DNA of 64,000 nucleotides from NCBI GenBank assembly GCA_015490295.1, contig WFYC01000074.1, positions 1-64,000 of the forward strand, read 5' to 3'. Below, piece after piece: positions 27,574 through 45,333 of the stretch; position 1 is the stretch's first letter, and each line of letters begins with the position of its first letter. The notes under the pieces are model-generated. The model searched no databases and was not told where the DNA came from. It saw only the letters and a list, made by a program, of their open reading frames with translations. The stretch comes from Hydrogenimonas sp. (lineage in GTDB: Bacteria > Campylobacterota > Campylobacteria > Campylobacterales > Hydrogenimonadaceae). A program made the translations under genes and the position numbers.

Positions 27574-30561
27574 ATGTATTTTGGTAGGCTTTTTCTTTTC
27601 TTTTCTGCTCTTATAGCTTTTTTATACCCTACCGAATATAGAGCTGCCGACAACTGCAGTCCCTCCGACTTCTCCGTATCTCTCGATGTCGCAAACAGCT
27701 CCTACTCAAATAGCGGCAATATTGCAAGAGGAGGCTCGGATACATACTATGTCTCCATAGCGACGGCAGGCACAGTTACCGTAACCGTCTCATCCAGTAG
27801 GGTTCTCTTTTCATACTCCCAAAACAGCTGTCCCGCCGCAGGAGACCCGCCCGCTTCGCAGAGTGCGATATACAGCTTTACAGGACCTGTCGATTTCAAC
27901 CTCAGGCTCTACAGGGGGCGAAGGGGAGGTGGCGGCAGGAGGGCCGGAAGCTATACAATAAATATTGAATTTACTCCACTTTCTCCTGTAGCTGAGTGGA
28001 GGATGGATGAGTGCAGTTGGAGCGGTGCTGTTGGTGAGGTGCTCGATGCAAGCGGCAGCGGTCTTAACGGTACCGCTTTAAACGGTGCCTCCACGCTTGC
28101 CGCAAAACTATGTATGGGCGGTTCGTTCGACGGTATTGACGATGCTGTACGGATTGCGGACTCCGATCTGCTTGACGGTACGCAGACTCTTACCCTGATG
28201 GGGTGGATGAAACCGCGGCAGCTCTATCAGACCAACGGGTCCAATGCAAGAGGTTTTCTTTCCAAGCGTGTAAGCACGGGAACGGAGGAGTCGTACGGGA
28301 TTTTTTTCTGGAACGACAATCAGATGGTGGATGATGACGGGGACGGCGATCCGGACAGGGCGAAATTATATATAGATATCGACGGCAATAACGACAGATT
28401 CTCTACAAATGCATATATATCCAAAGGGGTATGGACTCATGTTGCCGTCGTATATGACGGCAACAGACCTTCAGCCTCCAGGGTGGAGGTTTATATTAAC
28501 GGTCAGCTGGACAAAACTGCGGCAGAAAGCAGCAGCACTCTTGCAAACTATGCTTCGGATCTATATATCGGAGAGCTGCACTATCCGAATGAGTTCAAGG
28601 TTTTTAAAGGGGAGTTGGATGAAGTCAAGATCTTCGACCGGGCGCTTAATGCGGACCAGATTCGACTTATTGTGGAAAACGAGATAGCCGGGAAAAACTA
28701 TGACGGAACGCAGAGGAGCTGCACCGACTGCACCCAGCCGCCCATGTATAAAAATGGTATATTCAACGCAGTCGACTACGCCACGATTTGCAATGCCGTA
28801 TCTAACTGGGACGACAATATCACGACTAAAGTGGCCGGGACTTCCTATTCGCTCTCCATACTTTCGAAAGATGAGGCAACCGGACTTCCTATGGAGGCAA
28901 ATATTACGAGGGTTGACCTCTACAGATATTCGAGCGGCGACAATATACAGTGCAGCGGCACTCCCTACTCTACGCTCACCCTTTGCAGCGGGGGGTGCGG
29001 CTTTACCGACGCGGCGGGCTGCATGAGGCTCGATGTTCCGTCATCTGCGAACGAGAGAGCCGCAAAGTGTGTGGAGGTTCATATCGAGGGCAAAGATCTT
29101 AACGATACCGCTTCCGTTAGCCTGAAAGAGAGCAATAGCAGTGACGACTTCGCGGTCAGGCCCGACAGGATCATCTTTTTGCAGCCTGCGGCTGATGCGA
29201 ACCTGACCGCAGAGCGCACCTACCTCTTTGCCTCCGCACTCAAAGCGGTTCTCTCCGATGGTGTGACAGCCGCTCCCGACTACAACACCACACTTTCGCC
29301 GGGCGGCGTGAAGTATATGAGAAACGGCGAGCAGAACTCATCCCTTGCCGGAACTCTGAGTTCTTCCCCTTCGACCTTCATAAACGGGTCGGCCGATCTG
29401 AACGTAAGCTTCGGCGACGTGGCGATCGTATCTATCAGGTTCAACGATACGGGCTGGGCTTCGGTCGATAGCGACGATACGCCGCAGCAAAACAGAAGGG
29501 TTCACGGCGAACGAAACGTAACCTTCATCCCCAATCGTTTCGATCTGCAGTTTCTCTCCGTTCCGACAATGGAAGATAACGATACCGCAAACAGGTTTAC
29601 ATACATATCGAACGACCTGAACATGAGTGCATGGGCCAGGAACCTGACGGTCGTCGTCACCGCCGTGGGCGAAAAGAACTCTACAATGAAAAACTTCTCG
29701 AATCCGGCCGACCGCCTATTCGCGGACCGTGTCGATATCTCACCCCTGCTCAACCTGCCGGCAAAACACTCCGCCGCAGTCTATACGGCCGCACCTTCGG
29801 CGCAGTCTGGGGCGGATATAGGGTTCGATTCTGGGGAGGCGTTTGTAAACTACGCCGATGTGCCGTTCAACTATGACCGCTTCTTCGACACTCCTCAAGA
29901 CCCCTTCTTCGTCTCCGGCAGTGAGGCGAATATCTCCGTGACGGTTACCGATTCGCGGTATCCGGCCGTAACCGGAAGCCTCTTTTCGGTTTTCGACGGC
30001 AACGCCACATTCTACTACGGCAGATTGCGCTCAGATGATGTTATAACGACGCAGCCTTCGGTAAAAAAGAGTGTGGAGATAGAGGTCTATGACAGCGGCG
30101 GCTCGCCACTGGTATCGGGCTTCAGGCAGAATTCGCTCAGATGGTTCAGAAACGGGAAGCATACCGGCCCCTCTTCGGGCGGGATAGAGGAGACTAACGT
30201 CACTTTGGGACTCTCTTTGAACTCCGGTTCGGACACTACCGTTTCGACCGACTACTCCACGTTCGGCAGTGGCTTCGTAGTGATGGAGATAAACAACACG
30301 TCGGGCCTGCGAAAGAGCAGAACGGTCCATATGGGGATCGACAGCTGGCTCTGGTACGCCCCGCGCGGATTCGGCCTGCCGTACAGCTACGCCGCCGCCT
30401 CGGACTGCGCTTCTCACCCATGTTTTCTCTACAGTTACGAAGTCAAAGGAGGGGCCACGGGTGTGCAAAGCGGCGACTTCAACGGCTCCGATTTCGATAT
30501 AGAGCCGATAGACGCCAATGCTACACTTAGGCGAAAAGAGGGAGTGAAACTCTTCAGATGA
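27574..30561 (+). CDS. LamG-domain giant protein, MshQ-like candidate pilus adhesin
   Basis: 995 aa; signal peptide; LamG-like region (SFDGIDDAVRIADSDLLDGTQTLTLMGWMKP...LYIGELHYP..FKGELDEVKIFDRALNADQI); first gene of pilus operon. Confidence 0.75.
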   Translation: MYFGRLFLFFSALIAFLYPTEYRAADNCSPSDFSVSLDVANSSYSNSGNIARGGSDTYYVSIATAGTVTVTVSSSRVLFSYSQNSCPAAGDPPASQSAIYSFTGPVDFNLRLYRGRRGGGGRRAGSYTINIEFTPLSPVAEWRMDECSWSGAVGEVLDASGSGLNGTALNGASTLAAKLCMGGSFDGIDDAVRIADSDLLDGTQTLTLMGWMKPRQLYQTNGSNARGFLSKRVSTGTEESYGIFFWNDNQMVDDDGDGDPDRAKLYIDIDGNNDRFSTNAYISKGVWTHVAVVYDGNRPSASRVEVYINGQLDKTAAESSSTLANYASDLYIGELHYPNEFKVFKGELDEVKIFDRALNADQIRLIVENEIAGKNYDGTQRSCTDCTQPPMYKNGIFNAVDYATICNAVSNWDDNITTKVAGTSYSLSILSKDEATGLPMEANITRVDLYRYSSGDNIQCSGTPYSTLTLCSGGCGFTDAAGCMRLDVPSSANERAAKCVEVHIEGKDLNDTASVSLKESNSSDDFAVRPDRIIFLQPAADANLTAERTYLFASALKAVLSDGVTAAPDYNTTLSPGGVKYMRNGEQNSSLAGTLSSSPSTFINGSADLNVSFGDVAIVSIRFNDTGWASVDSDDTPQQNRRVHGERNVTFIPNRFDLQFLSVPTMEDNDTANRFTYISNDLNMSAWARNLTVVVTAVGEKNSTMKNFSNPADRLFADRVDISPLLNLPAKHSAAVYTAAPSAQSGADIGFDSGEAFVNYADVPFNYDRFFDTPQDPFFVSGSEANISVTVTDSRYPAVTGSLFSVFDGNATFYYGRLRSDDVITTQPSVKKSVEIEVYDSGGSPLVSGFRQNSLRWFRNGKHTGPSSGGIEETNVTLGLSLNSGSDTTVSTDYSTFGSGFVVMEINNTSGLRKSRTVHMGIDSWLWYAPRGFGLPYSYAAASDCASHPCFLYSYEVKGGATGVQSGDFNGSDFDIEPIDANATLRRKEGVKLFR

Positions 30562-31190
30562 GAAGCGCGTTTACGTTGATAGAGCTTATCTTTACGATGG
30601 TGATAGTGGGGCTCGTGTTTATGGTGGTCCCCAAGATCGTATTCGTCACCAACAAGAGTTTCGAAACCGTCTCGAGAGAAGATGCACTCTACAACGCAGT
30701 ATCTATGGCGGGGATCGTCGCTTCGCTGCCGTGGGATGAGAACAACACCCTGTACAGTGCTGTTTTGGGCACCGACTCCACACAGCCGGCCTACCTTTGC
30801 GACGCTACTACGGGTTTTTACAGGATAGGTGGATTCAAAGGGGGGCGAAACTGCATAGAGGGTTCGGCGGCGAAAGCGTCCCCGATCGGAAGGGAGGACT
30901 TATTCTATAACGATTTGGACGACTACGACGGATACAGCGTAACCACCGCAACCCCCAACGGGTCCAAATATCTCTTGAGTGTCAAAGTCAGATACCTTGC
31001 CGATCCGCCACCGGGAGGCGTGGTGGACTTTTCCGCACTTCCTGCAGTTTCGACCAGTTCCAACATAAAAGAGGTCAACGTAACCGTAACCAACGCCGCG
31101 GGAAGGGTAAAGAGCCCGTTTGTATCTTCCGTATACTACGAAAGCGCCAATATAGGGCAGACCGGCATCAAAAGAAGGGCGTGGAGATGA
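30558..31190 (+). CDS. Type IV prepilin-like / pseudopilin protein
   Basis: MRSAFTLIELIFTMVIVGLVFMVVPK class III prepilin signal; ATGA overlap. Confidence 0.85.
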   Translation: MRSAFTLIELIFTMVIVGLVFMVVPKIVFVTNKSFETVSREDALYNAVSMAGIVASLPWDENNTLYSAVLGTDSTQPAYLCDATTGFYRIGGFKGGRNCIEGSAAKASPIGREDLFYNDLDDYDGYSVTTATPNGSKYLLSVKVRYLADPPPGGVVDFSALPAVSTSSNIKEVNVTVTNAAGRVKSPFVSSVYYESANIGQTGIKRRAWR

Positions 31191-32122
31191 GACGCGCTTT
31201 TACGCTGATAGAGATAATCGTCGTCATCTCCATTTCAGGAATATTGGCGCTAGGAGCATTCAAGGCACTCAACGCACTTTTTGTAAGGAGCGCCAAAGCA
31301 CGTGCCGTCACGGAGCTTTCGCTAAATACGCAGTCCGCCCTCGATCAGCTGAGTACGATTCTGTACGCAAGGGTGCCCGGGAGTGTCATAGGGTACGACC
31401 CCGCCGACGGAAGCTACGCATCTTTGGAGAATCTCGCTTCGCCAAAACCGGTACTGGAGTGGATAGGCAGCGCACAGGAGAGTCTAAAGAGGCGCGACTT
31501 CAGCGGGTTTGTGGATATGAATGCAAGCGATCCGGCGGCAAACGTCATAGTCTCTCCTGAGAGTGACGGCACAAAAGTAAATGCGACGCTACGCCAGAAG
31601 TTCGGTACGACGGCAGACTTTTTCGCAAACGATCTTGTGAGGCTCGTCTTTGCCGGCAGTTACGATACAGGCGCAATAGAGGGCGCCTCCTTCAACGCTC
31701 TCTTCGGTTGGCACGGCGGCGGCACAGAGAGGATCTATGCCATATTGATGAACGGTGACGGCAACGTCAGCTTCAGTGCCTATCCACCATATATCTACGA
31801 AAAGTACTACCTGGCCGACACCGCCTACGCCGTGGCCAGGGGTGCGGATGTCAACCTGAGTGCGGCGTGCGTAACCTCTCTGGGCATACCCGTATCTGCC
31901 AGCTCCCTGCTTCTGTTTTACGACTACAGGCCCTGGAAGGGCGAGACCTTCTGTGCCGACTCCGGCGCTGCACCTTCGGGGAAGGTGACGCTTCTTGCCG
32001 ACGATGTATCGGGTTTCAGGGCGCAAAGCGTAAACGGCATGATCAGGCTCGGCATAGATAGTGTGCGAAAGATAAGAGGCTCTACCCCGGTACGGATATC
32101 GAAGCAGAAGGCGGTTTTCTGA
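31187..32122 (+). CDS. Type IV prepilin-like / pseudopilin protein
   Basis: MRRAFTLIEIIVVISISGILALGAFKAL. Confidence 0.85.
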   Translation: MRRAFTLIEIIVVISISGILALGAFKALNALFVRSAKARAVTELSLNTQSALDQLSTILYARVPGSVIGYDPADGSYASLENLASPKPVLEWIGSAQESLKRRDFSGFVDMNASDPAANVIVSPESDGTKVNATLRQKFGTTADFFANDLVRLVFAGSYDTGAIEGASFNALFGWHGGGTERIYAILMNGDGNVSFSAYPPYIYEKYYLADTAYAVARGADVNLSAACVTSLGIPVSASSLLLFYDYRPWKGETFCADSGAAPSGKVTLLADDVSGFRAQSVNGMIRLGIDSVRKIRGSTPVRISKQKAVF

Positions 32123-32571
32123 TGGCGGCAAGAAGAGGCTTCGGACTGTGGCAGGCGATAGCGGTCATATTGATACTCGGCGTAGTGATGACTGTGGCAA
32201 TGAGATATGCCCGGATCGCGGCCGTGCACACCGCCGACAGCTACACCAAAGAGCAGGCGGAGCTCTTTTTGAGAAGCGCCATAGAGACCGCTCTGCTTCA
32301 GATAAGCACCCACGATAGAAGCGGCGGATGCCTTTCGAGCGTGAAGGTGCTCTCCAGAGATGGCAAGTTTATTGCCGATATAAATGTAACGAGGTACTAT
32401 CTGTTCGAAGGGAGCTCAGACCTGGCGCTATGCGGCAGCCTCGGCTACCCCATAAAGAGCTCCGAGTCGCACGGCATGGTGATGATAGAGGCGGTCGTAA
32501 GAAGCGACCCTTCGAACGCAAAAATCGTACACCCTGTAAGAATCCTCAGAAGGAGCATACAGCGGCCATGA
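32122..32571 (+). CDS. Minor pilin-like protein lacking Glu5
   Basis: MAARRGFGLWQAIAVILILGVVMTVAMRYA; position within prepilin cluster. Confidence 0.75.
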   Translation: MAARRGFGLWQAIAVILILGVVMTVAMRYARIAAVHTADSYTKEQAELFLRSAIETALLQISTHDRSGGCLSSVKVLSRDGKFIADINVTRYYLFEGSSDLALCGSLGYPIKSSESHGMVMIEAVVRSDPSNAKIVHPVRILRRSIQRP

Positions 32572-33035
32572 GAATGGGTTTTACACTTATAGAGCTGATA
32601 TTCGTGATTCTACTGATCGGCATACTGGGCGGTATAGGCATGTCGCTCTACAGACCCGACAGGGGATTGGCCGATGCACGATTCATAGCCTCTAAGATAA
32701 TGGAGAGCAGATACAAAGCGATCGGCTACGAGCGCTTGAACTTCGACTCGAGCGTGCTTGCCGGCAGCGTCGGCTGTGTGACTCTCGACAGATCCGGGCT
32801 CGACGATCCGCCGTCCGAAGCCGGCGGATACAGGCTCGGCAAAAGAACGCAAATAGTAGTAACAGGCCTCTCGGGGAACACAATTTGCTTTGACGAGAAG
32901 GGGTATCCGCACGACGGGGACTTTACGACAGGTTCACTACTGCACCAAAAGGTCGATATTAATGTCAGCACACCGAAAAATAGCTACATCATAAGCGTAA
33001 TGCCCTTCAGCGGATATGCGAAAATAGTCTACTGA
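32568..33035 (+). CDS. Type IV prepilin-like / pseudopilin protein
   Basis: MRMGFTLIELIFVILLIGILGGIGMSLY; ATGA overlap. Confidence 0.88.
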   Translation: MRMGFTLIELIFVILLIGILGGIGMSLYRPDRGLADARFIASKIMESRYKAIGYERLNFDSSVLAGSVGCVTLDRSGLDDPPSEAGGYRLGKRTQIVVTGLSGNTICFDEKGYPHDGDFTTGSLLHQKVDINVSTPKNSYIISVMPFSGYAKIVY

Positions 33036-33096
33036 CCTATTTCGCACCTCTTGCACAGAAGGACCGGAATATACTTAATAAAGAGACGGAAAAGCG

Positions 33097-34578
33097 ATGG
33101 CAGGACGGAACGTATACTACTGCATAGATGGGAGAGAGGCCCTGGAGTTCGATGGGACCACTTTTTCCAAAACCGATATAAAAAGAGCCAAAAGGGGTTT
33201 CTGTGCATCCGTGGTTCCACCCGGGCATATACGCTCCCACACCTTCAAGATTCCGGCCGATACCGACGGCGAAAGGCTTGATACACTCGTAGAGATCACG
33301 ATGTTCGAAGCGGGAGGGCTCGATCTTGAGAAGGAGTATGCTATCGCCTATGTGAAGCATACCCTGGAGTTCGAATCTTCATGGCTGATAGAGGCGTTTG
33401 CGGTGGAGCATTCGAAGCTCAAAGAGCTCTTCGGAGCGACGGCCGCTAAAGCCGGCCATATCGACCTGATCGCCGTACCATATATGGTTTACGAAGGGCT
33501 CTACCTCTATGACAAAGCCGACAGCGAAAGGACGGAGCTCTTTCTCTATCTCGGCGACGACGACTCGTACGCCGTGCTCTGCAAAGGCGGGCGCTATATA
33601 GCCCACAGAGACCTTCCCTCCATCTCTTCGATAGCCGCAAAGGCCAATGTGAGTATCGAAACGGTAAAAGATACCCTTCACAAGCGGGGGCTGCAGAGCG
33701 AACTCTACGGGCAGGACGAGCTGCTTCTTCTGGAGAGTATAGAGAGTGCGTTCTTAAAAATCGTCGAGCGGGTTGCACAGACCGTAAACCATAAGCGCGG
33801 GATTTTCGGAATAAAGATGGTAGACCGCATAACCCTGGACTTCGAAGAGAGTCTGATCCCCGGTCTTTGGGAGCTTTTTGACAGCTACGGTTTCGAAGAG
33901 AGTGCAAAGGCGGTGCTGGCCTGCTGTGAGAGCCTCGAGCCCTCGTTTCAGCACAGGGGTGTCGAAGCGCTATATATGCTCGCTGCAAATGAGGGCAGGC
34001 TCGATCCGGCTAACCTGACGATTTTTGAAAAAAAGGGGAGTTTCTGGGCCACCCATACCGGGCGTTTTGTGGCGGCAGTGGCGGCCTCGGCGATTCTGGT
34101 ATGCGGGTACGCCCTTTTGAAGGAGGCCGAGTTGGCGTCTTTGGAGGATGAGAGTGCTATGCTTAGCGCCAGGCTGAAGAGTGTGAAGCAGAAAGCTGCC
34201 GTTTTGCGAAAGGGCATGACAAAAGAGCGCTCCATGCTGCAGGAGCAGAGAAAGAGGCTCGAGAGCATCCGGCGCGAAATCATGGCTTTCGGCGATACGG
34301 CCGATGCCGCACTGCTGATAGAGGAGTCGAAGCTGAAAAGGCGGCGGATGGTGGAGGATGTCGACAGAGCTTTGGCGAAATACAGATTGAGTGCCGCATC
34401 GTTGGAGCAGAACGGATCGAAAAGGGTGGAAGTGGAGATCCTGAGCGACTATTCGAAACGCGACAGGATAGCCAAGTTCATGAAAGAGCTTATCGATATG
34501 GGCTACAGAGGGGTGGGCACAGAAGCGATAGAGCTCGACGAGAACCTCTACAGCAGCCGGGTGGAGATAGTGCGATGA
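33097..34578 (+). CDS. PilM/MshI/GspL-like pilus assembly protein with C-terminal TM and coiled coil
   Basis: 493 aa; actin-like N-terminal half, TM at VAAVAASAILVCGYALL, coiled coil; synteny with PilO-like ORF. Confidence 0.6.
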   Translation: MAGRNVYYCIDGREALEFDGTTFSKTDIKRAKRGFCASVVPPGHIRSHTFKIPADTDGERLDTLVEITMFEAGGLDLEKEYAIAYVKHTLEFESSWLIEAFAVEHSKLKELFGATAAKAGHIDLIAVPYMVYEGLYLYDKADSERTELFLYLGDDDSYAVLCKGGRYIAHRDLPSISSIAAKANVSIETVKDTLHKRGLQSELYGQDELLLLESIESAFLKIVERVAQTVNHKRGIFGIKMVDRITLDFEESLIPGLWELFDSYGFEESAKAVLACCESLEPSFQHRGVEALYMLAANEGRLDPANLTIFEKKGSFWATHTGRFVAAVAASAILVCGYALLKEAELASLEDESAMLSARLKSVKQKAAVLRKGMTKERSMLQEQRKRLESIRREIMAFGDTADAALLIEESKLKRRRMVEDVDRALAKYRLSAASLEQNGSKRVEVEILSDYSKRDRIAKFMKELIDMGYRGVGTEAIELDENLYSSRVEIVR

Positions 34579-35195
34579 GCTTTTTGGAAGATACCGAGCG
34601 GCAGCTTGCCGATATGGGCGGAGCCAAACGATTGGCTCTCACCTTCGCCGCCGCGGCGATGATAGGTGCCGGAGTCTGGTTCGGCTGGATAGAGGACCTG
34701 GAGGCCGACATAGAGCATGCAACCGCCAAAAATGCACAGATTATCAAGCAGATAGGGCTGATAGACCTCAAAAGGCTTTCAAAGAGGATCGAAGAGGTGC
34801 GCCGCAAGCGGATGGAGGCGGCAGAGACACTTCAGCGCAGCCGCGCGCAGGTACTCTATCTGCGTACGGAGATGGATAGAGTCGGCAAACTGAAGTTCGA
34901 CCAGGGCGTTATGGCCGACCTTCTTGACGATATTCTTAAAAGATCGGTGCGGCTGGGGCTGAGGATCGACTCCATAGAGAGTGTAGACGATTCGCTCGAC
35001 CTTACGCCGCTTCTTCAGAGAAAAAAGAGAATATCCGTCGAGGGAGCAGGAGCGTTCGCGAAGATAGTGAGCCTGAGCCACTACATAGAGAGCCGCCCCA
35101 TGCTGGCGAAGATCGATTCGCTCGATATATCCCTGGACAAAAAGGGGAGCACGGCATTCAGGATAGATATATCTACATACGGAGTGAAAGAGTGA
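34575..35195 (+). CDS. PilO/MshJ-like pilus assembly protein
   Basis: Single TM near N-terminus, coiled coil, alpha/beta C-term (GAGAFAKIVSLSHYIESRPMLAKIDSLDI). Confidence 0.65.
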   Translation: MSFLEDTERQLADMGGAKRLALTFAAAAMIGAGVWFGWIEDLEADIEHATAKNAQIIKQIGLIDLKRLSKRIEEVRRKRMEAAETLQRSRAQVLYLRTEMDRVGKLKFDQGVMADLLDDILKRSVRLGLRIDSIESVDDSLDLTPLLQRKKRISVEGAGAFAKIVSLSHYIESRPMLAKIDSLDISLDKKGSTAFRIDISTYGVKE

Positions 35196-35596
35196 AGGGA
35201 ACGGTTTTTATGCTGATATCGGCGCACCTGTGGGTAATGAGCGCTTTCGCGGGGGAGGCGGAGGATATTTTGAAGAAGTTCGACGCCCTCGAAAGCATCC
35301 ATATTCCGTCCGCGGTCGAGTACAGGGTGTACGACCCCTTCAAGCGTGCGGCTCCTATGGTCAAAAAGAGCGGCAGAGGGCTTGCGGCGCACCGGCCCGT
35401 TCCCATAAGGGTGACGGCAGTAATGAACGACAGGGCTTTCGTGAACGGCAGGTGGGTTCGTACCGGCGAAAGGATCGGCCGCTATAAGATAGCCCGAATA
35501 GGAGGCGGCGGGGTCGTGCTAAAAAGAGGAAATACCACCCGTTTTGTGCCGCTCGGCAAGAGGAAGAGAATTTTGAAGATCGAGGAAAATCTATAA
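35192..35596 (+). CDS. PilP/MshK-like small secreted protein
   Basis: Signal peptide; short beta-rich domain (VNGRWVRTGERIGRYKIARIGGGGVVLKRGNTTRFVPL) next to secretin. Confidence 0.6.
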   Translation: MKGTVFMLISAHLWVMSAFAGEAEDILKKFDALESIHIPSAVEYRVYDPFKRAAPMVKKSGRGLAAHRPVPIRVTAVMNDRAFVNGRWVRTGERIGRYKIARIGGGGVVLKRGNTTRFVPLGKRKRILKIEENL

Positions 35597-37119
35597 TGAA
35601 ACGTGCGGTTGTCACACTACTGTTTTTCGCTATGCTGCTATACGGTTCGGCCGACTGCCGGACGAAACTCTTTTCGTTCAAGGTTTCCGGTGCGGGCGGT
35701 ACGGTTACCCTGTACGACGTTCTCGAAAATCTCGCGGATACCTGTGAATTCAGCGTGATGTTCGCCGACAAAGAGGTACAGAGGGTTCTAAAGAGCCCGT
35801 TGAAGATGGTCTATATAAAAGATTACACCCTCGAAGATATGTTCCACTTCCTTTTTGACGACCACAATATGTTCTACGACTTTGACCGCGAAAGAAGGGT
35901 CTTGACGATATCGTACATAGAGACGAAATCTTTTCACATAGACTATGTGAATCTAAGCGAGCTGAAGACAGAGTCGGTGAAATCGATAACGGTCGGAGCC
36001 TCCGGAAACCAGGGCGGAGTATACGGCACGACGGGCGGATACAGCAGCGGCGGTACGGCAGGCAAAAGCGGTTACGGGGGTACGGGAGGCGGTGATAACT
36101 CCGACTACACGACCATAAAGACCGTTACCGAGTTCAACTTCTGGAGCGACTTCAAGAGCCAGATAGACGCGATATTGCAGCGTGACGAAGATAGCCATAC
36201 GGTCAAAAGCAAAGCGCTTGTAAACAACGAAGGGGGCATCGTTACGGTTACGGGAACGAAGCGGCAGATCGAGCGCGTGCAGAACTATATAGAACAGGTT
36301 ATGGGGAGGCTGCACAAACAGATCATGCTCGAAGCGCGGCTGGTTGAGCTGCGCTACAACGACCAAAACACTACGGGAGTGGACTGGAGCCGTTTCGATC
36401 TCTCTTTGAAAGGGGAGGTGTCGGATACTTACCAAAGAGGTCTATCTTCACTTACCGACCGCCCTTTCTACTCTTTCAGCTACAACTTCACGATGGACGG
36501 GCTTCTCGACTTTTTGCAGCGTTACGGCACTGTAAACACACTATCCAACCCCAAAATCATGACGCTCAACAACCAGCCGGCCGTCATAAACGTGGGAGAC
36601 CAGATAAACTACAAATACCAGACAGGTGCGATTACGACCACCACGACGGGAAACCCTGTAGGTACCAACACATACCAGCTCGGCTCTGTATTTATAGGGC
36701 TTACTCTCAATATCGTACCGGAGGTGACCGACGACGGTTTTATCATACTGCGCGTCAATCCGGTCGTAAGTGAAATGCTTGGGGAGAGCAGTGTCAACGA
36801 CCTGACATATACCCAGCCCGGTAACGATGCGGATGGTGTGCGAAGCATGCCGCCGGATGTCAAGATAAAGCAGCTCACCTCCATAGTGAAGGTGAAGAAC
36901 GGCCACAAGGTGATCATTGGTGGCTTGATAAGCAACCGCACCTACTCCACCAACACGAAAGTACCGGTGCTTGGAAGTCTTCCGTTGGTCGGAAAGGCGT
37001 TCAGCCATAACGGTACGCAGAGCCAGAAGGTGGAGCTCATTATCATACTGACTCCAAAAATCGTGGACGGAACATCTTTCCCATCCATCGAAGACGCGCT
37101 TCAGATGGGGAGTAGATAG
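35596..37119 (+). CDS. Secretin, MshL/PilQ/GspD family
   Basis: Secretin core (GTVNTLSNPKIMTLNNQPAVINVGDQINY, VPVLGSLPLVGKAFSHNGTQSQKVELIIILTPKIV). Confidence 0.92.
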   Translation: MKRAVVTLLFFAMLLYGSADCRTKLFSFKVSGAGGTVTLYDVLENLADTCEFSVMFADKEVQRVLKSPLKMVYIKDYTLEDMFHFLFDDHNMFYDFDRERRVLTISYIETKSFHIDYVNLSELKTESVKSITVGASGNQGGVYGTTGGYSSGGTAGKSGYGGTGGGDNSDYTTIKTVTEFNFWSDFKSQIDAILQRDEDSHTVKSKALVNNEGGIVTVTGTKRQIERVQNYIEQVMGRLHKQIMLEARLVELRYNDQNTTGVDWSRFDLSLKGEVSDTYQRGLSSLTDRPFYSFSYNFTMDGLLDFLQRYGTVNTLSNPKIMTLNNQPAVINVGDQINYKYQTGAITTTTTGNPVGTNTYQLGSVFIGLTLNIVPEVTDDGFIILRVNPVVSEMLGESSVNDLTYTQPGNDADGVRSMPPDVKIKQLTSIVKVKNGHKVIIGGLISNRTYSTNTKVPVLGSLPLVGKAFSHNGTQSQKVELIIILTPKIVDGTSFPSIEDALQMGSR

Positions 37120-37911
37120 ATGCTCGACTATAAAAGGGCGGCCGCCCTCTTCGAAGATAGAGCCGACAGCGGAGACTATTTTGATTCGGCGAGTGCCGAG
37201 CGTTCGCGAAGCACACTAAGAAGAGTGGTCGGGGAAGAGGAGAGGAGACCCCTTTTCCTTCTTGGAGAGCCCGGGGTCGGAAAGAGTCATATGCTCGAAA
37301 CGGTTGCCGAAGAGATGGGGAGCGAGCGGCTGATCGTGCATCTGAAAGAGCCATTTTTCGAGCCGAAAGATTTCCTGGAGCGTCTGTTGCGCGAGGCTGG
37401 AAAAAGTGTGGATGGCGGATTGGAGGAGATGAAGAGGGCAGCCGTCGATACTTACGGCGAAAGAGAGCATCTGATCATGATAGACGAAGCGCAGATTCTC
37501 GATGAGAAGTCGCTCGAGTTTTTGAGAATCCTGGCCGATACGAAAGCTTTCAGGCTGCTCCTTTCGATGCATCGCAAAGAGGGTGAAGAGATTCTGGCCA
37601 AACCCCATTTCAGGACCAGAAGCCACCGTGTCGTGGAGATCGGCACCCTCTCGGCGGACGAGGTGCGGCGCTATATTGAGGGGAGGCTGAGAGAGAATGG
37701 GCTGGATGAGGTTTCACGCATATTCGAGCCGAAGCACTTCAAACGCATATACCGCTACACCGAGGGGAACTTCAGGACTCTCAAGCGGATGGTGCAGACC
37801 CTCTTCGAACTGATGGAGCACGCAAAAAGCGAGGGGCTCACAAAATATGCCAGGCCGAACAGCTGTACCCTGGATATGGCCGCACTCGATCTGGAGCTGA
37901 TAGATGCATAG
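37120..37911 (+). CDS. ExeA/MshM-like AAA ATPase
   Basis: Walker A LLGEPGVGKSH, Walker B LIMIDEAQIL. Confidence 0.85.
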   Translation: MLDYKRAAALFEDRADSGDYFDSASAERSRSTLRRVVGEEERRPLFLLGEPGVGKSHMLETVAEEMGSERLIVHLKEPFFEPKDFLERLLREAGKSVDGGLEEMKRAAVDTYGEREHLIMIDEAQILDEKSLEFLRILADTKAFRLLLSMHRKEGEEILAKPHFRTRSHRVVEIGTLSADEVRRYIEGRLRENGLDEVSRIFEPKHFKRIYRYTEGNFRTLKRMVQTLFELMEHAKSEGLTKYARPNSCTLDMAALDLELIDA

Positions 37912-38689
37912 CCGTTTCGAATCGCTTCTGCGCAGGTGCAGATCGAGAAGGAGAAAAATCATCGCCAAACGAATCGCTGCGGTTTCGCTGCTCCTTGTTT
38001 TGGGAGGCGTTGCGGCATATCTTACTTGGTATAACGGTGCTCTTTTAAACGGTGGCTGGAAAGAGCAGAGCCGTGAAACCTCTTTGGTAACAACTGTGCA
38101 GAGCATGACGGAGTCTGTGAGAGCGAAACCGGCTTTGAAAGATGTGCATCCCAAAACCGAGGTGGCCGCCGAGCCGAAGGGGCAGATCGAAAAAAGCGGC
38201 GGCGAAATGGTTATGAAAGAGAAAAAGAGCGCTTTGCAAAATGGTGAAAAGAGTGAGCCGAAAGAGATAAAAAAAGAGGCTGCAAAAGAGGCAGTGAAGC
38301 CGGAACCGAAAGTGAATAGGGATGTGCTGACGGAAGCGTTGAAGCCGGAAGCCGAAAAAGCGGAAGCGGAACCGAAGATCCGGCTGGAGGTAAGGGAAGT
38401 TACAGGTATAGACGCGCTGCTCGAGCAGTATGCGAATTCGCCAAGATACTCCGTAGCTCTTAAAATAGCTCGGAAATATTATGACGAGGGGGATTTCGAA
38501 AAAGCCTCTTTGTGGGCCAGGAAAGCGAACGTTCTTGATCGTGACGACGAGAGGGCGTGGATCATCTACGCGCAGTCGGAGTACGCGCTCGGGCGCGAGG
38601 AGCGTGCAAAACGGATACTCATACTCTTTCTAGACTACAAAGATTCGGCAAAAGCGCGCTCTTTGCTGATGACATGGGGCAGGGAATGA
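37904..38689 (+). CDS. MshN-like TM protein with TPR-type C-terminus
   Basis: N-terminal TM, K/E-rich linker, YYDEGDFEKASLWARKANVLDRDDERAWIIYAQSEYALG. Confidence 0.65.
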   Translation: MHSRFESLLRRCRSRRRKIIAKRIAAVSLLLVLGGVAAYLTWYNGALLNGGWKEQSRETSLVTTVQSMTESVRAKPALKDVHPKTEVAAEPKGQIEKSGGEMVMKEKKSALQNGEKSEPKEIKKEAAKEAVKPEPKVNRDVLTEALKPEAEKAEAEPKIRLEVREVTGIDALLEQYANSPRYSVALKIARKYYDEGDFEKASLWARKANVLDRDDERAWIIYAQSEYALGREERAKRILILFLDYKDSAKARSLLMTWGRE

Positions 38690-40356
38690 TAAAACAGAGT
38701 GTAAGACTGGGCGATATACTGGTCGAAAAAGGTCTCATCACCGAAGATGAACTGACGGAGGCTCTAAAGAAGCAGAAAGAGAGCGACTACTCCAAAAAGC
38801 TGGGTGAGATTCTGGTAGATGAGGGTTTCGTGACAGAAAGGGAGATAGCGGAGCAGCTCGCGAGTCAGCTCAGGCTGGAGTTTGTGGACCTCTACGGCGT
38901 GGAGCTGGATCTGAAGCTGCTCGAGCAGTTTCCGCTCCAGGTTCTCAAAAACGCATGGGCGGTACCGTTTGGGGAGGATGAGGAGAGCATATTCGTAGCC
39001 ACTTCCGATCCGCTTAACTACGATGCTCTCGAGGTTCTCGAAAGAAGTGTGGTAACGAAGCCGATCAAACTCTTTCTGGCTATGAAGGGCGAGATTCAGC
39101 ACATATTTCAGCGCATTGAGATTATAGATTCCACCAGGTCGATCGTGGCCGAAGTGAAGCGAGAAATAAAACAGCATGGCATCAAAAACGAGAGTGAAGA
39201 GAGTGCTGTTTTGAAGCTTATAAAGCTCATCATAAAAGATGCCGTAATCCGCAACGCGAGCGACCTGCACATAGAGCCGGACGCCTACGAGGCATCGGTA
39301 CGTGCCAGGGTGGACGGTGTGCTTCACGAGACCTTCGTCTTCGATCTGGAGGTCTACACCGCACTCGCTTCGCGCATAAAGATACTCGGAAACCTCGACA
39401 TATCTGAGCGCAGAAAGTCGCAGGACGGCAGGTTTATGCTGGTTGTCGACGGCAAAGAGTACGACTTCAGGCTCTCGGCGACCCCAACCCTGCACGGTGA
39501 GTCGATAGTGATGCGTATTCTCGACCAGCAGAAGGTTCTGATGAAGATGTCAGAGCTCGGGTTCGAAGAGGAGAATCTTAAAAGCTTCCATGAAGTGATT
39601 CACCAGCCCTACGGCATAGTTCTGCTCACGGGCCCTACCGGCAGCGGAAAGACGACGACCCTGTATGCCGCCTTGAACGAGATCAAAAGCATCGAAAACA
39701 AGGTGCTGACCATAGAGGATCCCGTAGAGTACCAGCTCCCCCTCATTCAGCAGGTGCAGGTCAACGAAAAGATCGGCTTCACATTTGCGAAGGCCCTGAA
39801 ATCTTTTCTGAGGCAGGATCCCGACATCATAATGGTGGGAGAGATTCGCGACTTCGAGACGCTATCCGCAGCCGCCCAGGCATCGCTTACCGGTCACCTC
39901 GTCTTCTCCACACTCCATACCAACGACGCCCCGAGCGCCGTCAGCAGGATGGTCCAGATGGGGCTGGAGCCCTATCTGATAGCCGATGCGCTCATAGCCG
40001 TAGTGGCACAGCGCCTCGTGCGTAAAATCTGCCCCTACTGCAAAACCGAGAGCAGGCCCCACCACGACCTGATAAAGAGGGTAGAGAAGTACCTGCCCGA
40101 AAATCCGCTCTTCTACAAGGGCAAAGGGTGCCCAGAGTGCGAGATGACCGGCTACATGGGAAGAACGCTGATAGTGGAGATAATGAGCGTAAACGAAGCG
40201 GTCGCACAGAAGATCTCCGAAGGGGCATCCAGGCTCGAGATAGCCAAAACGGCGCTCGAATCGGGGCAGTACCGCCCGATGGTCGAAGATGGCGTCAGAA
40301 AGGTTCTCGGCGGAGTCACCACCCTCGAAGAGGTATTGAGAGTTACGCGGAGCTGA
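38686..40356 (+). CDS. GspE/MshE-type secretion/pilus ATPase
   Basis: GPTGSGKTTTLYAAL, EDPVEYQLP, LRQDPDIIMVGEIRD, CPYC...CPEC zinc motif. Confidence 0.95.
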   Translation: MIKQSVRLGDILVEKGLITEDELTEALKKQKESDYSKKLGEILVDEGFVTEREIAEQLASQLRLEFVDLYGVELDLKLLEQFPLQVLKNAWAVPFGEDEESIFVATSDPLNYDALEVLERSVVTKPIKLFLAMKGEIQHIFQRIEIIDSTRSIVAEVKREIKQHGIKNESEESAVLKLIKLIIKDAVIRNASDLHIEPDAYEASVRARVDGVLHETFVFDLEVYTALASRIKILGNLDISERRKSQDGRFMLVVDGKEYDFRLSATPTLHGESIVMRILDQQKVLMKMSELGFEEENLKSFHEVIHQPYGIVLLTGPTGSGKTTTLYAALNEIKSIENKVLTIEDPVEYQLPLIQQVQVNEKIGFTFAKALKSFLRQDPDIIMVGEIRDFETLSAAAQASLTGHLVFSTLHTNDAPSAVSRMVQMGLEPYLIADALIAVVAQRLVRKICPYCKTESRPHHDLIKRVEKYLPENPLFYKGKGCPECEMTGYMGRTLIVEIMSVNEAVAQKISEGASRLEIAKTALESGQYRPMVEDGVRKVLGGVTTLEEVLRVTRS

Positions 40357-40358
40357 AT

Positions 40359-41600
40359 ATGCGCTACTTCAGGATAGATTACAGGCAGGGGAACAGGCGC
40401 GAATCGGTCGTACTCGAGGCGCAGTCGAAAATGGATGCGGTAACCGAGTTCAGGCAGCGCACCCTCGGCGTCATGCTATCGGTAAAGGAGGTCTCGAAGC
40501 CCTTTTCGCTGAAACTGCGAAAGTGGCTGGAAGCCAACAGGTCGCCGGTGCGCCGCAAAAGGGTCTCTCAGGAGCCCTACATAGCGACACTGAGGCAGAT
40601 ATCGGTTATGCTCGATGCCGGACTTCCGATAAACCAGTGCCTCGAAGAGGCGATACGCTCCACCGACGACGAGATGCTCAAAGAGATTCTTCGCTCACTG
40701 CTCTCTGATATCGAGAGCGGTATGAGCCTCAGCGAAGCGCTCGAACCTTTCAGAGTCCAGCTCGGCAGCATCTCCCTCTCTATGTTCAACCTCGGAGAGC
40801 AGACCGGAACGCTTTCAGACTCGATAAAAAAACTGGCAGAGATACTCGAGCAGATCCAGCACAACAGGCGTGAGCTCGTGCGGGCGACTCGCTATCCGCT
40901 CTTTACGATCATTGCGATGATGCTCGCTTTTGTCGTCGTTATCCTTATGGTCGTTCCGCAGTTTCAGGAGATATTCGCCGAAAGCGGGGCCGATCTGCCT
41001 TTCCCGACACAGCTTCTGATCTGGGTGGAGCATGCGATGACGGAATATGGCCCCTTCATCGTAGCGGGTGCAGTCGTTTTGAGCCTCCTTTTTTCGTACA
41101 TCTACGGAAAAAATGAAAAAGTGAGGCTCGAAGCGGACCGTCTGCTGCTTAAAGTCTATATCGTAGGCAAGGTGACGCACTACGCGATGGTGGGACGCTT
41201 CGTCTATATATTCAACGTTTTGCTCAATGCCGGCATTCCGATAACCGATGCACTCGATGCGGCCATAGGTGTAGTGGAGAACAGCTATATGAAAAGGCGT
41301 CTCGAGGCGATAAAAAGGGCCATAGAAGAGGGGCGTCCGCTCCACAGCGGCTTCGAAGAGAGCGGACTCTTCGCGAACATGATAGTGCAGATGGTAAAGG
41401 CGGGCGAGCAGGGCGGCGCGCTGGGTACGATGCTTCAGAAGGTCACCGATTACTACCAGGAGAGGTATCAGCACATAGTCGACAATGTAGCATCGATGAT
41501 CGAACCGATACTGATAGCAGCGATAGCCGGGTTCGTACTGGTGCTGGCGCTTGGAATATTCCTGCCCATGTGGAGCATGGCCGAAGTGATGGGGATGTGA
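40359..41600 (+). CDS. GspF/PilC/MshG-type inner-membrane platform protein
   Basis: ATLRQISVMLDAGLPINQCLEEA; three TM segments; T2SSF repeats. Confidence 0.93.
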   Translation: MRYFRIDYRQGNRRESVVLEAQSKMDAVTEFRQRTLGVMLSVKEVSKPFSLKLRKWLEANRSPVRRKRVSQEPYIATLRQISVMLDAGLPINQCLEEAIRSTDDEMLKEILRSLLSDIESGMSLSEALEPFRVQLGSISLSMFNLGEQTGTLSDSIKKLAEILEQIQHNRRELVRATRYPLFTIIAMMLAFVVVILMVVPQFQEIFAESGADLPFPTQLLIWVEHAMTEYGPFIVAGAVVLSLLFSYIYGKNEKVRLEADRLLLKVYIVGKVTHYAMVGRFVYIFNVLLNAGIPITDALDAAIGVVENSYMKRRLEAIKRAIEEGRPLHSGFEESGLFANMIVQMVKAGEQGGALGTMLQKVTDYYQERYQHIVDNVASMIEPILIAAIAGFVLVLALGIFLPMWSMAEVMGM

Positions 41601-41695
41601 TGGAGAGCGAATTCGGAACGATAACGGTTGCGGTGATAAGCACGCTCATTCTGGCGTTCGGACTCTGGATTATCAGAAAGTTGACACAGATATAG
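41600..41695 (+). CDS. 31-aa single-TM peptide at end of pilus operon
   Basis: MESEFGTITVAVISTLILAFGLWIIRKLTQI; ATG overlaps TGA of platform gene. Confidence 0.55.
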   Translation: MESEFGTITVAVISTLILAFGLWIIRKLTQI

Positions 41696-41742
41696 GGGGC
41701 GGCCTTTTTCGGCTCTATCCTGCGTCGAACCGGAAAAAGAGA

Positions 41743-41790
41743 ACGAAACGCCCGACCTGCGGGGATGGGGGCCGGGTGTTTCGTTTTCAT
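41743..41790. terminator. Bidirectional Rho-independent terminator between pilus operon and convergent pilins
   Basis: ACGAAACGCCCGACC...GGCCGGGTGTTTCGT stem with T-rich flanks on both strands. Confidence 0.85.
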
Positions 41791-41813
41791 TTGGTATTGG
41801 CATTATGCGGGTG

Positions 41814-42290
41814 TCAGTTGTCGATCAGGGTGAAGGTTCCGGAGGTGCTGTTGTACTCCCAGTAGTCGTTTGCGTCCGGTTTGCCGGCAATATCGGGTGA
41901 CGCCGCCTTTACGCCGCCGTTGGAAGCGGGGCCCCTGTAGTAGCCGTCGGCCCCTTTTACCCACTTTACATTTTTTCCATTTTTCAATATTTTGTCGAAC
42001 GGTGCGGTGTCGCTGCTGCCGAGTTTTATCGGGTATCCGGTTGCGGCGTCAAACTGCGCGGGGTCCGAGGGGTCTATGTCGAAACCGCAGGTAAACGAGC
42101 CTTCGTTTATTATCCACTCTCCGTGGCATACGTCTATCGCCGTCTGAACCGACGAGGCGGTGGAGAGTTCCGAGGTTATTTTGGCGTTGTCGCGCATTCC
42201 CAGAAACTTCGGAACGGCGACGCCGCCGAGCACCCCTATGAGAAGAATGACGAATATCAGCTCGATAAGGGTGAAAGCGGCTCTTTTCAT
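41814..42290 (-). CDS. Type IV pilin-like protein
   Basis: MKRAAFTLIELIFVILLIGVLGGVAVPKFLGMRDNAK. Confidence 0.92.
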   Translation of the reverse strand: MKRAAFTLIELIFVILLIGVLGGVAVPKFLGMRDNAKITSELSTASSVQTAIDVCHGEWIINEGSFTCGFDIDPSDPAQFDAATGYPIKLGSSDTAPFDKILKNGKNVKWVKGADGYYRGPASNGGVKAASPDIAGKPDANDYWEYNSTSGTFTLIDN

Positions 42291-42294
42291 GCGT

Positions 42295-42765
42295 CTACTG
42301 CAGATCTATGTTTACCGTATAGGTGCCGTTGAATGTAGAGTTCGGAGATACGAGCCTTTTGAGCTTCTGGTATTTGTGATTCGCAGAGTCGTTCACGACT
42401 TTTATCTGGGCGGAGAGAACCGGCGGATTCTGAGTGTGGTCAATGAGAATAGTCGCGTTTAGCTCACCGTTTTTGCCCTTGTACTCCCACGCCGTCGAGG
42501 ATGCGTTGTATGTGGCGTTTATGCTCCAGTAAGGAGACCCTTTAACCTCGAAAATATCGGTAATATTGGCGTCGGTCCCGTTAAGGTCGAGTAGGTTAAG
42601 GTATGCGGGCGGTACGGAAGATACGGCATCCTGCACCACTTTGAAGACGTTGGTCACCTCGGCGTTCTGCTTCATTCCCTTGTACTTCGGAATCGCTACA
42701 CCGGCGAGTATTCCTATTATTATGATCACGAAGATCAACTCTATGAGTGTAAACCCTTTTCTCAT
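42295..42765 (-). CDS. Type IV pilin-like protein
   Basis: MRKGFTLIELIFVIIIIGILAGVAIPKYKGMKQNAE. Confidence 0.92.
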   Translation of the reverse strand: MRKGFTLIELIFVIIIIGILAGVAIPKYKGMKQNAEVTNVFKVVQDAVSSVPPAYLNLLDLNGTDANITDIFEVKGSPYWSINATYNASSTAWEYKGKNGELNATILIDHTQNPPVLSAQIKVVNDSANHKYQKLKRLVSPNSTFNGTYTVNIDLQ

Positions 42766-43050: not shown

Positions 43051-43176
43051 ATCAAAATTATGTATAGTAATGCGATTAATAAAAAATTATTGTAAAAAAC
43101 CTTATATGGTTTCACTTGAAAATCTCAATACTGCTGAGATTGGTGTTTGACAGATTCTGGTTTTGAAAGGGGTATC

Positions 43177-45333
43177 ATGGGTTTTGGAGGTTTTGGAAGG
43201 TATGTTTTTGCCTGTTTGTTGTCGCTCTCTATTCTGACTGGGTGCGGTGGCGGTTCCGGTTCGGATACGACAGACGGCACATCGGGTTCGATCACAACAA
43301 CTTACGCAACAGCACAGCTTGGAAACCTGGCAAATGCGACGGTTGAGATCTTTGAAGTGGAAGATAACGGAAGTTTGACGCTGAAATGGAGTGAACAGAC
43401 ATCTTCCGGCGATAGACTGGATGAGATAGGTAAGTTCGATCTTCATGCGCAGGATTTGAAGCCGGATAGGTTCTACCTTTATAAAGTAAGTGGAGGAGAG
43501 GACTGGGATGCTGATGACGACGGCGTAAAGGATGCAAACTATACTCTGAACAGAGGTACTGTCAGAGCCGTAGCCAAAGGGAGTGAGATTATAGATATGG
43601 GCGAAGGTTTCAGAGTAACCGCTGTAAGCGAGATAGTTTACGAGAAAGTTGCAAAAACCCTCAAATACGACTTCAACAGTACAACCTTCGGCGATATTCT
43701 AAACCAAAGTGCGGCTCTGGTAGTCGACGATATCGATGGTGACGGCAGTGTGGATATCAAGGATATATTACGCTATGACCCGGTGGCCGATAAAGAGAGG
43801 CTAAAAGAGCTGTACAGGCTTAAACTGAATGAAATTCTGGATACCATCCACCAGGGAAAAACCGTCGTGTTGAATCTTGACTCCATAGTGGGCTCCTACG
43901 GTACATCAAGTTCAACTCACGAGGTTGCTATCTCAAGTGACGGTACAATAGCCTATTTGGCAGATGGGGATAACGGTTTGGTGATCATAGATATAACCGA
44001 TCCGGCAAATCCGACTCAGCTCGGCTCTTATTATGATACGGCCGGGTATGCATTTGGTGTCGCCCTCTCGGGCGACGGTACGAAAGCCTATTTGGCGGAC
44101 GGTGGTAACGGTTTAATAATCATTGATATCACTGATCCTGCAAACTTAACTAAACTAGGATCTTTTGATATAGGAGGCAGCGCCAACAGTGTTGTTCTTT
44201 CAGGCGACGGTACAAAAGCTTATATAGCAGGTAGTAACGGTTTAGTCATTGTTGATGTGGTTGATCCTGCAAACCTGACAGAACTGGGCTCGTACAATAC
44301 AGCCGGAGTTACTTCTTGGGATATTACCCTTTCAGGCGACGGTACAAAAGCCTATATAGCAGATTATAATAACGGCTTGGTAGTTATCGATATCACTGAT
44401 CCTGCAAACCCGACCCTGTTTGGCTCCTATGATACGGCCGGGGATGCTCATGGTGTTACTCTCTCAAGCGACGGTACAAAAGCCTATGTGGCAGATAATA
44501 ATAACGGGTTAGTAATTATAGATATTACCGATCCTGCAAATCTAACCAGACTTGCTGTCTATAATGCGGGAAGGTATGCTTATGATGTCACCCTCTCAGA
44601 TGACGGTACAAAAGCCTATGTGGCAGATATTGTAAATGGTTTGGTAGTTGTCGATATCACCGACCCCACAAACCCGACCCCGCTCGGCTCCTACGATACG
44701 GCGGGGGATCCTCGTGGTGTTACTCTCTCAAGCGACGGTACAAAAGCCTATGTGGCGGACGGCGGTAACGGTTTGGTCATCATAGATATCACCGATCCCT
44801 CAAATCCGACTCTGCTCGGCACTTACGATACGGCGGGGTATGTCAGTGGCGTCATCCTCTCAGGTGATGGCACAAAGGCCTATGTGGCGGATGGCGGTAA
44901 TGGCTTGGCCATCATCGATATCAAAGATCCCTCAGCCCCAACTCTGCACGGCTCTTACGATACGGCCGGGAGTGCCGTTGGCGTTGCCCTCTCAGATGAC
45001 GGCACAAAAGCCTATGTGGCTGACCTTTTCAGTGGCTTGGCCATCATCGATATCAAAGATCCCTCAGCTCCAACTTTTCTTGGCTCCTACAATACGGCCG
45101 GGGATGCAAGTGATGTCACTCTCTCAGATGACGGTACAAAAGCTTATGTAGCAGATTATAGTGACGGTTTGGTCATTATTGATATCACCGATCCAAGCAA
45201 TCCAAGTGAGTTCAGTGCCTACAATACAATCGGTGCCGCTTATGGAGTTTGCCTCTCTGGTGACGGTACGGAGGCTTATATAGCAGACCTGAATAACGGT
45301 CTTGTGGTAATCGACCTCACTCTTTTCGAGTGA
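43177..45333 (+). CDS. LVIVD-repeat beta-propeller lipoprotein with dockerin-like Ca-binding motif
   Basis: Lipobox LTGC, DDIDGDGSVDIKDILRYD, 11 repeats of DGTKAYVAD.NNGLVIIDITDP. Confidence 0.9.
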   Translation: MGFGGFGRYVFACLLSLSILTGCGGGSGSDTTDGTSGSITTTYATAQLGNLANATVEIFEVEDNGSLTLKWSEQTSSGDRLDEIGKFDLHAQDLKPDRFYLYKVSGGEDWDADDDGVKDANYTLNRGTVRAVAKGSEIIDMGEGFRVTAVSEIVYEKVAKTLKYDFNSTTFGDILNQSAALVVDDIDGDGSVDIKDILRYDPVADKERLKELYRLKLNEILDTIHQGKTVVLNLDSIVGSYGTSSSTHEVAISSDGTIAYLADGDNGLVIIDITDPANPTQLGSYYDTAGYAFGVALSGDGTKAYLADGGNGLIIIDITDPANLTKLGSFDIGGSANSVVLSGDGTKAYIAGSNGLVIVDVVDPANLTELGSYNTAGVTSWDITLSGDGTKAYIADYNNGLVVIDITDPANPTLFGSYDTAGDAHGVTLSSDGTKAYVADNNNGLVIIDITDPANLTRLAVYNAGRYAYDVTLSDDGTKAYVADIVNGLVVVDITDPTNPTPLGSYDTAGDPRGVTLSSDGTKAYVADGGNGLVIIDITDPSNPTLLGTYDTAGYVSGVILSGDGTKAYVADGGNGLAIIDIKDPSAPTLHGSYDTAGSAVGVALSDDGTKAYVADLFSGLAIIDIKDPSAPTFLGSYNTAGDASDVTLSDDGTKAYVADYSDGLVIIDITDPSNPSEFSAYNTIGAAYGVCLSGDGTEAYIADLNNGLVVIDLTLFE
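43888..45330 (+). repeat. Tandem intragenic ~132-bp repeats (about 11 units)
   Basis: Recurring GACGGTACAAAAGCCTATGTGGCAGAT...GGTTTGGTCATCATAGATATCACCGATCC. Confidence 0.9.

Follow-up and report, generated by a model that had tools for sequence, protein, structure and literature searches.

An MSHA-type pilus cluster of its own lineage in the vent bacterium Hydrogenimonas, with a probable role in cyclic di-GMP-controlled adhesion

The window, by which we mean the whole 64,000-nucleotide stretch of Hydrogenimonas sp. DNA analysed here (contig WFYC01000074.1, positions 1 to 64,000), carries a gene cluster that quite probably encodes a complete type IVa pilus of the mannose-sensitive haemagglutinin (MSHA) type, representing its own lineage in Campylobacterota and most likely serving as an adhesion pilus controlled by cyclic di-GMP (c-di-GMP). 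The evidence lies in gene content and order, tree placement, conservation of the c-di-GMP motif, genes for PilD and PilT elsewhere in the genome, and selection on a 31-residue peptide, F. The MSHA pilus is used by Vibrio to stick to surfaces; analogy with it makes adhesion, switching by c-di-GMP and retraction most likely, as it does the roles assigned below to F and to the large protein Q. The source genome is a metagenome-assembled genome of a hydrothermal-vent Campylobacterota (82% complete, 1.77 Mb, 85 contigs). MSH systems have already been reported in Epsilonproteobacteria (Denise et al., 2019; PMC6668835), and the cluster is a variant of the MSHA-type pilus.

Gene order and layout of the cluster

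The operon comprises 14 genes, all on the + strand between 27574 and 41695, in the order Q-D-O-P-C-I-J-K-L-M-N-E-G-F (letters are msh gene names), with start codons refined for C (32568), E (38686) and G (40359). Loci of the same MSH line are called window-type here; those read consist of a Q-D-O-P-C-I-J-K-L-M-N-(X)-E-G-F module plus pilins and belong to families f1, f4, f5, f8, f9 and f11. About 30 loci in these six families repeat the full gene order, far beyond chance. The features are as follows, C66 being another contig of the genome.

27574-30561, + strand: Q, MshQ-position protein of 995 residues, putative tip adhesin (Pfam Laminin_G_3, 84 bits)
30558-31190, + strand: D, minor prepilin at the MshD position (prepilin N-terminal motif TIGR02532, 18.5 bits, cut-off 16.3), with a 4-nt overlap with Q
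31181-32122, + strand: O, minor prepilin, MshO/GspJ-like (N_methyl, 27 bits, cut-off 21.2; TIGR02532, 27.5 bits)
32122-32571, + strand: P, pilin-like protein at the MshP position (position kept in window-type loci)
32568-33035, + strand: C, minor prepilin, MshC/GspH-like, 155 residues (TIGR02532, 17.2 bits, cut-off 16.3), with a 4-nt overlap with P
33097-34578, + strand: I, MshI, with an actin-like PilM/GspL cytoplasmic domain, a long helix and a ferredoxin-like C-terminal domain (predicted fold)
34575-35195, + strand: J, MshJ, PilO/GspM-like (Pfam PilO, 15.4 bits, below cut-off)
35192-35596, + strand: K, MshK, PilP/GspC-like (33% identity over 60 residues to K of the C66 paralogue, E 3e-8)
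35596-37119, + strand: L, MshL secretin (TIGR02519 pilus_MshL the best match; tree)
37120-37911, + strand: M, MshM, ExeA-like AAA ATPase (AAA_22, 65.8 bits, cut-off 27)
37904-38689, + strand: N, MshN, membrane-anchored TPR protein (ANAPC3/TPR matches below cut-off)
38686-40356, + strand: E, MshE extension ATPase with an N-terminal c-di-GMP-binding MshEN domain (T2SSE, 428 bits; NF053729)
40359-41600, + strand: G, MshG inner-membrane platform, GspF-type (T2SSF, 180 bits; tree)
41600-41695, + strand: F, 31-residue single-pass membrane peptide at the mshF position (conservation, pN/pS, alignment)
41739-41789, no strand: strong stem-loop between the convergent units, likely a bidirectional terminator (folding of 41694-41815)
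41814-42290, − strand: A2, prepilin of 158 residues, candidate major pilin at the MshA/MshB position (low-scoring PilA/GspG-type N-terminal matches)
42295-42765, − strand: A1, prepilin of 156 residues, candidate major pilin (TIGR02532, 30.5 bits, cut-off 16.3)

A preliminary description, made from the window's letters, had listed these operon genes on one strand with translational coupling throughout. All are indeed present on the + strand, and nearly all of the 13 junctions overlap or lie at most 2 nt apart: five are 4-nt ATGA/GTGA overlaps, three are 1-nt overlaps, and the others include two longer overlaps (10 and 8 nt), a 0-nt gap and a 2-nt gap. Coupling is interrupted between C and I, where the sole real gap within the operon measures 61 nt. 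The extent given then was too short, leaving out the two convergent prepilin genes (41814-42765) that face the operon's 3′ end; the stretch between the two units, 41694-41815, has a predicted fold of −54.3 kcal/mol (z −3.44). An upstream promoter scan gave no signal above chance.

Three of the four prepilins previously counted within the operon (D, O and C) have the canonical motif, while P is only pilin-like, with a degenerate N-terminus (hydrophobic segment RRGFGLWQAIAVILILG) and no family match in the scans of window proteins. The A1/A2 pair beside F is kept in most window-type loci, and in family f5 (L138, L139) both pilins lie downstream of F on the same strand. Q has a single LamG/concanavalin-type domain at residues 186-363 and a predicted all-beta structure of low confidence (pLDDT 57). 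Its orthologues within the genus range from 879 to 1754 residues, with LamG_3 in seven of eight and DUF6701 in two of eight, and its C-terminal part is conserved among relatives.

Among the assembly proteins, L scores best as MshL (239.4 bits vs 132.7 for GspD and 110.8 for PilQ), and two congeneric window-type secretins exceed the TIGR02519 cut-off (252.5 and 250.9 bits). E matches 5htl, the structure of V. cholerae MshE (E 2.4e-14). For I there is no clear sequence family, and hhalign on sequence only failed to show GspL/PilM identity; it is taken as GspL/PilM-like because the predicted fold (AlphaFold mean pLDDT 88) settled what hhalign could not, with P. aeruginosa PilM:PilN (5eou, E 1.1e-13) as the best Foldseek match and GspL cytoplasmic domains also matched. 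J and N resemble their counterparts in the C66 paralogue, J by profile (hhalign probability 98.5) and N by 29% identity (E 9e-13); K had no family match in the scans of window proteins.

Two MSH lines in Campylobacterota

The MSH model requires mshA, mshE, mshG, mshL and mshM (Denise et al., 2019; PMC6668835). All have counterparts in the window: E, G, L and M by family matches and trees, and A1/A2 in the mshA role, for which only the prepilin motif and the conserved position speak. The core genes group with gammaproteobacterial MSH, apart from the type II secretion system (T2SS) and the type IVa pilus (T4aP), although the ATPase node is weak. In the secretin tree the MSH clade (support 100/99) includes Aeromonas and Legionella MshL and leaves GspD, PilQ and HofQ outside, and the platform tree joins the window type with Aeromonas MSHA (99/97), away from T2SS and T4aP references. 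The ATPase tree has the same arrangement, but the node uniting it with gammaproteobacterial MSHA is weak (81/47). None of the three trees groups the window proteins with T2SS references (GspD, GspE, GspF). Gene order, the best score of MshL, and the secretin and platform trees thus bear out the earlier description of an MSHA-like operon in a Campylobacterota background.

Campylobacterota have two MSH lines, a near-universal one without local pilins, which contains the Cts transformation system of Campylobacter, and the patchy, full, pilin-bearing window type. Of 397 Campylobacterota genomes, 365 have a match to the MshL model (above cut-off in 283), and the window-type I profile reaches at least 157 bits in 28, the remainder scoring at most 142. 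Three GspE-type assembly ATPases are present in the source genome, in the window and on contigs C66 and C19. The C66 locus (L044) is a gene-for-gene paralogue of window I-J-K-L-M-N-E-G without local pilins; C19 holds a separate T2SS, whose GspD scores 373 bits against an NCBIfam cut-off of 351. CtsD, CtsP, CtsX and CtsE are 472, 202, 195 and 519 residues long (PMC8308473). L, M, N and E of a Campylobacter-type locus (L052) measure 470, 202, 195 and 519 residues in the same order, and because gene order and lengths match, Campylobacter-type loci are identified here as Cts. Campylobacter-type loci have a secretin that the MshL model scores at 334 bits, and no I or J was detected in them.

Cts-line rows are the nearest relatives of the window type in the secretin, ATPase and platform trees, and the window type stands beside, not within, the Campylobacter (Cts) rows. 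The Campylobacterota secretins divide into window-type (99/98) and Cts-type (96/96) rows. Those of family f5 fall on the Cts side, and forcing them with the window type was rejected (p-AU 0.009); f5 included, the window type is one clade in the ATPase (100/99) and platform (100/100) trees. The components therefore do not all lie inside a well-characterised Campylobacterota system, having their own clade in the ATPase, platform and, f5 apart, secretin trees. The ATPase and platform trees break up the Cts-type rows: long-branched Campylobacter and f2 rows fall outside, and slower rows adjoin the window type. This split may reflect true history or long-branch attraction. The f5 loci L138 and L139, with window-type E, G and F beside a Cts-side secretin, possibly record gene exchange or a long-branch effect.

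The L-M-N-E-G order is common to the window and the Cts line, whereas the latter has no local pilins, Q or F and nearly always no c-di-GMP motif. No paper linking Cts with the MSHA/MSH line was found in a literature search of partial coverage, which is not proof of absence, nor did that partial search find any mention that the Cts line had lost the c-di-GMP motif. The function of the cluster in Campylobacterota had been thought poorly described; this is correct only in part, given the report of MSH systems in Epsilonproteobacteria.

c-di-GMP motif, pilus dynamics and the F peptide

The c-di-GMP motif NF053729 is present in window MshE at 70 bits, against a cut-off of 38, and in all 29 window-type ATPases vs one of 30 Cts-type ones; a regular-expression test agrees. 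The MshEN receptor has two 24-residue motifs, separated in V. cholerae by five residues (PMC5013675), and window MshE has both in the relaxed form of that description. The spacer is seven residues in 26 of the 28 window-type proteins with two motif matches and ten in the other two. V. cholerae MshE contact residues are largely retained in the alignment: R7 and Q61 are nearly invariant, and G9, Q30 and L39-G40 invariant. The source genome also encodes 25 GGDEF domains. The lone Cts-type ATPase still matching the motif (L059:12524-14287, G242) is a possible intermediate.

Neither pilD nor pilT was found at the window locus, as previously noted. MSH loci all are without a prepilin peptidase (Denise et al., 2019; PMC6668835). 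The peptidase must come from elsewhere, and the genome yielded a single Peptidase_A24, on contig C71. The suggested genome search thus recovered both functions outside the locus, and the idea that retraction might be lacking is contradicted by two PilT-family ATPases (466 and 429 bits, NCBIfam cut-off 319), from which retraction is likely available. In counts uncorrected for shared ancestry, PilT occurs in 28 of 28 window-type genomes vs 235 of 397 overall, or by genus in 16 of 16 vs 48 of 68.

The 31-residue peptide, too, is real. Among window-type loci with sequence downstream of G, F follows the platform gene on the same strand in 31 of 31 loci other than the window (32 of 32 with it) and in none of 33 control loci. 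It is under purifying selection (pN/pS 0.23 among seven congeners), and its alignment suggests one membrane helix with a basic C-terminus. Homology to MshF is not claimed, because the Aeromonas open reading frame at the same position has 152 residues and the likeness is positional only. F appears to be an undescribed protein, no description having been found in the partial literature search.

On this basis, A1 and A2 would be processed by the peptidase encoded elsewhere, and the minor pilins D-O-P-C with the LamG protein Q would form or cap the tip. I-J-K would connect platform G to secretin L, whose assembly N and M would assist. E would extend the fibre once c-di-GMP occupies the MshEN domain, PilT encoded elsewhere would retract it, and F may be a small inner-membrane partner, probably of G.

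Genomic setting, alternatives and meaning

As in the window, the module adjoins rsmE and/or an rsmI-type/rlmB-type pair (rsmI and rlmB named by sequence resemblance, not family scan) at seven other Hydrogenimonas loci, and these shared neighbours suggest vertical descent. In two Hydrogenimonas loci (L082:2276-10154, G397; L084, G402), another type IV filament set, shorter than the module, takes up the rsmE-rsmI interval. It includes a 506-residue secretin, a pilin-like protein of 433 residues, GspE and GspF, and branches separately in every tree; pilus systems seem to be swapped at this position. The module of another congener (L080, G125) groups with f8/f9 in all three trees, away from other Hydrogenimonas, and is without the usual neighbours in the stretch read, so horizontal transfer is likely. 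A window-type module in L132 (10630-12716, G131) is without L, M and N, with K overlapping E by 4 nt; its secretin may be borrowed from a Cts-type cluster. In L140 (9949-11444, G195) the I gene is split by a TGA within the profile match, and the module may be decaying. The window also encodes, at 43147-45333, a lipoprotein-like protein with LVIVD beta-propeller repeats; it lies between the pilin genes and the rsmI-type gene and did not turn up in the loci read from relatives. On contig C76 (2368-2910), beside small membrane proteins, a fourth secretin, 405 residues long, resembles a filamentous-phage export gene.

The window shares with Vibrio, Aeromonas and Shewanella MSHA the gene order I-J-K-L-M-N-E-G-F with a pilin pair after it (on the operon's strand in f5 loci), the MshE c-di-GMP motif, ExeA-like MshM, TPR protein MshN, a large Q protein, the absence of a prepilin peptidase from the locus and a PilT elsewhere. 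It differs from gammaproteobacterial MSHA in its 31-residue F and usually convergent pilin pair. Several points weigh against an MSHA-type adhesion pilus: the Q-D-O-P-C block precedes the assembly genes, unlike in gammaproteobacterial MSHA; L lies slightly, by 11 bits, below the TIGR02519 equivalog cut-off (239.4 vs 250.2); the MshE spacer has seven residues vs five in V. cholerae; the second half-motif begins with K, not R, as it also does in Aeromonas MshE; the PilT association ignores shared ancestry; and the pilin family scores are low, so A1 and A2 are both only candidates for the major pilin.

That the cluster is the organism's DNA-uptake (competence) pilus, equivalent in function to Cts of Campylobacter jejuni, would fit the match of CtsD-P-X-E with L-M-N-E of L052, the closeness of the Cts-containing line and the ComEC encoded in the genome. 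We regard it as unlikely, since the genome has a separate Cts-line paralogue on C66, from the near-universal line, whereas the window type is patchy and is the only one to carry local pilins, F, the LamG protein and, one Cts-type ATPase apart, the c-di-GMP domain. The longer spacers might also be read as a sign that the MshEN domain of an MSHA pilus has lost ligand binding, leaving extension unregulated, but the largely retained contact residues and the above-cut-off NF053729 match make this quite improbable. Export of the LamG protein or other substrates by a T2SS seems highly improbable: secretins are common to T2SS and the GspE-, GspF- and GspL-like parts are homologous, yet the trees set window L, E and G apart and the genome has its own T2SS on C19. 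Paired major-pilin-like genes, like MshM and MshN, characterise MSH systems rather than T2SS.

The MSHA-type adhesion pilus thus remains our preferred reading. More tentatively, the old MSH pair may have split the work, Cts becoming a pilin-poor DNA-uptake system that lost c-di-GMP control and the other an adhesion pilus that keeps this control together with a LamG tip and pilins of its own and depends on a 31-residue platform subunit, F. The DNA-uptake machine of C. jejuni usually has only the label 'T2SS/T4P-like'; the findings place it with the MSHA pilus lineage, a close vent relative retaining the c-di-GMP switch, and the divergence of adhesion and competence pili becomes testable. Further, the cluster is a concrete candidate for surface attachment in Hydrogenimonas and Sulfurimonas-type bacteria, and F offers a small new handle on type IV pilus platform function.

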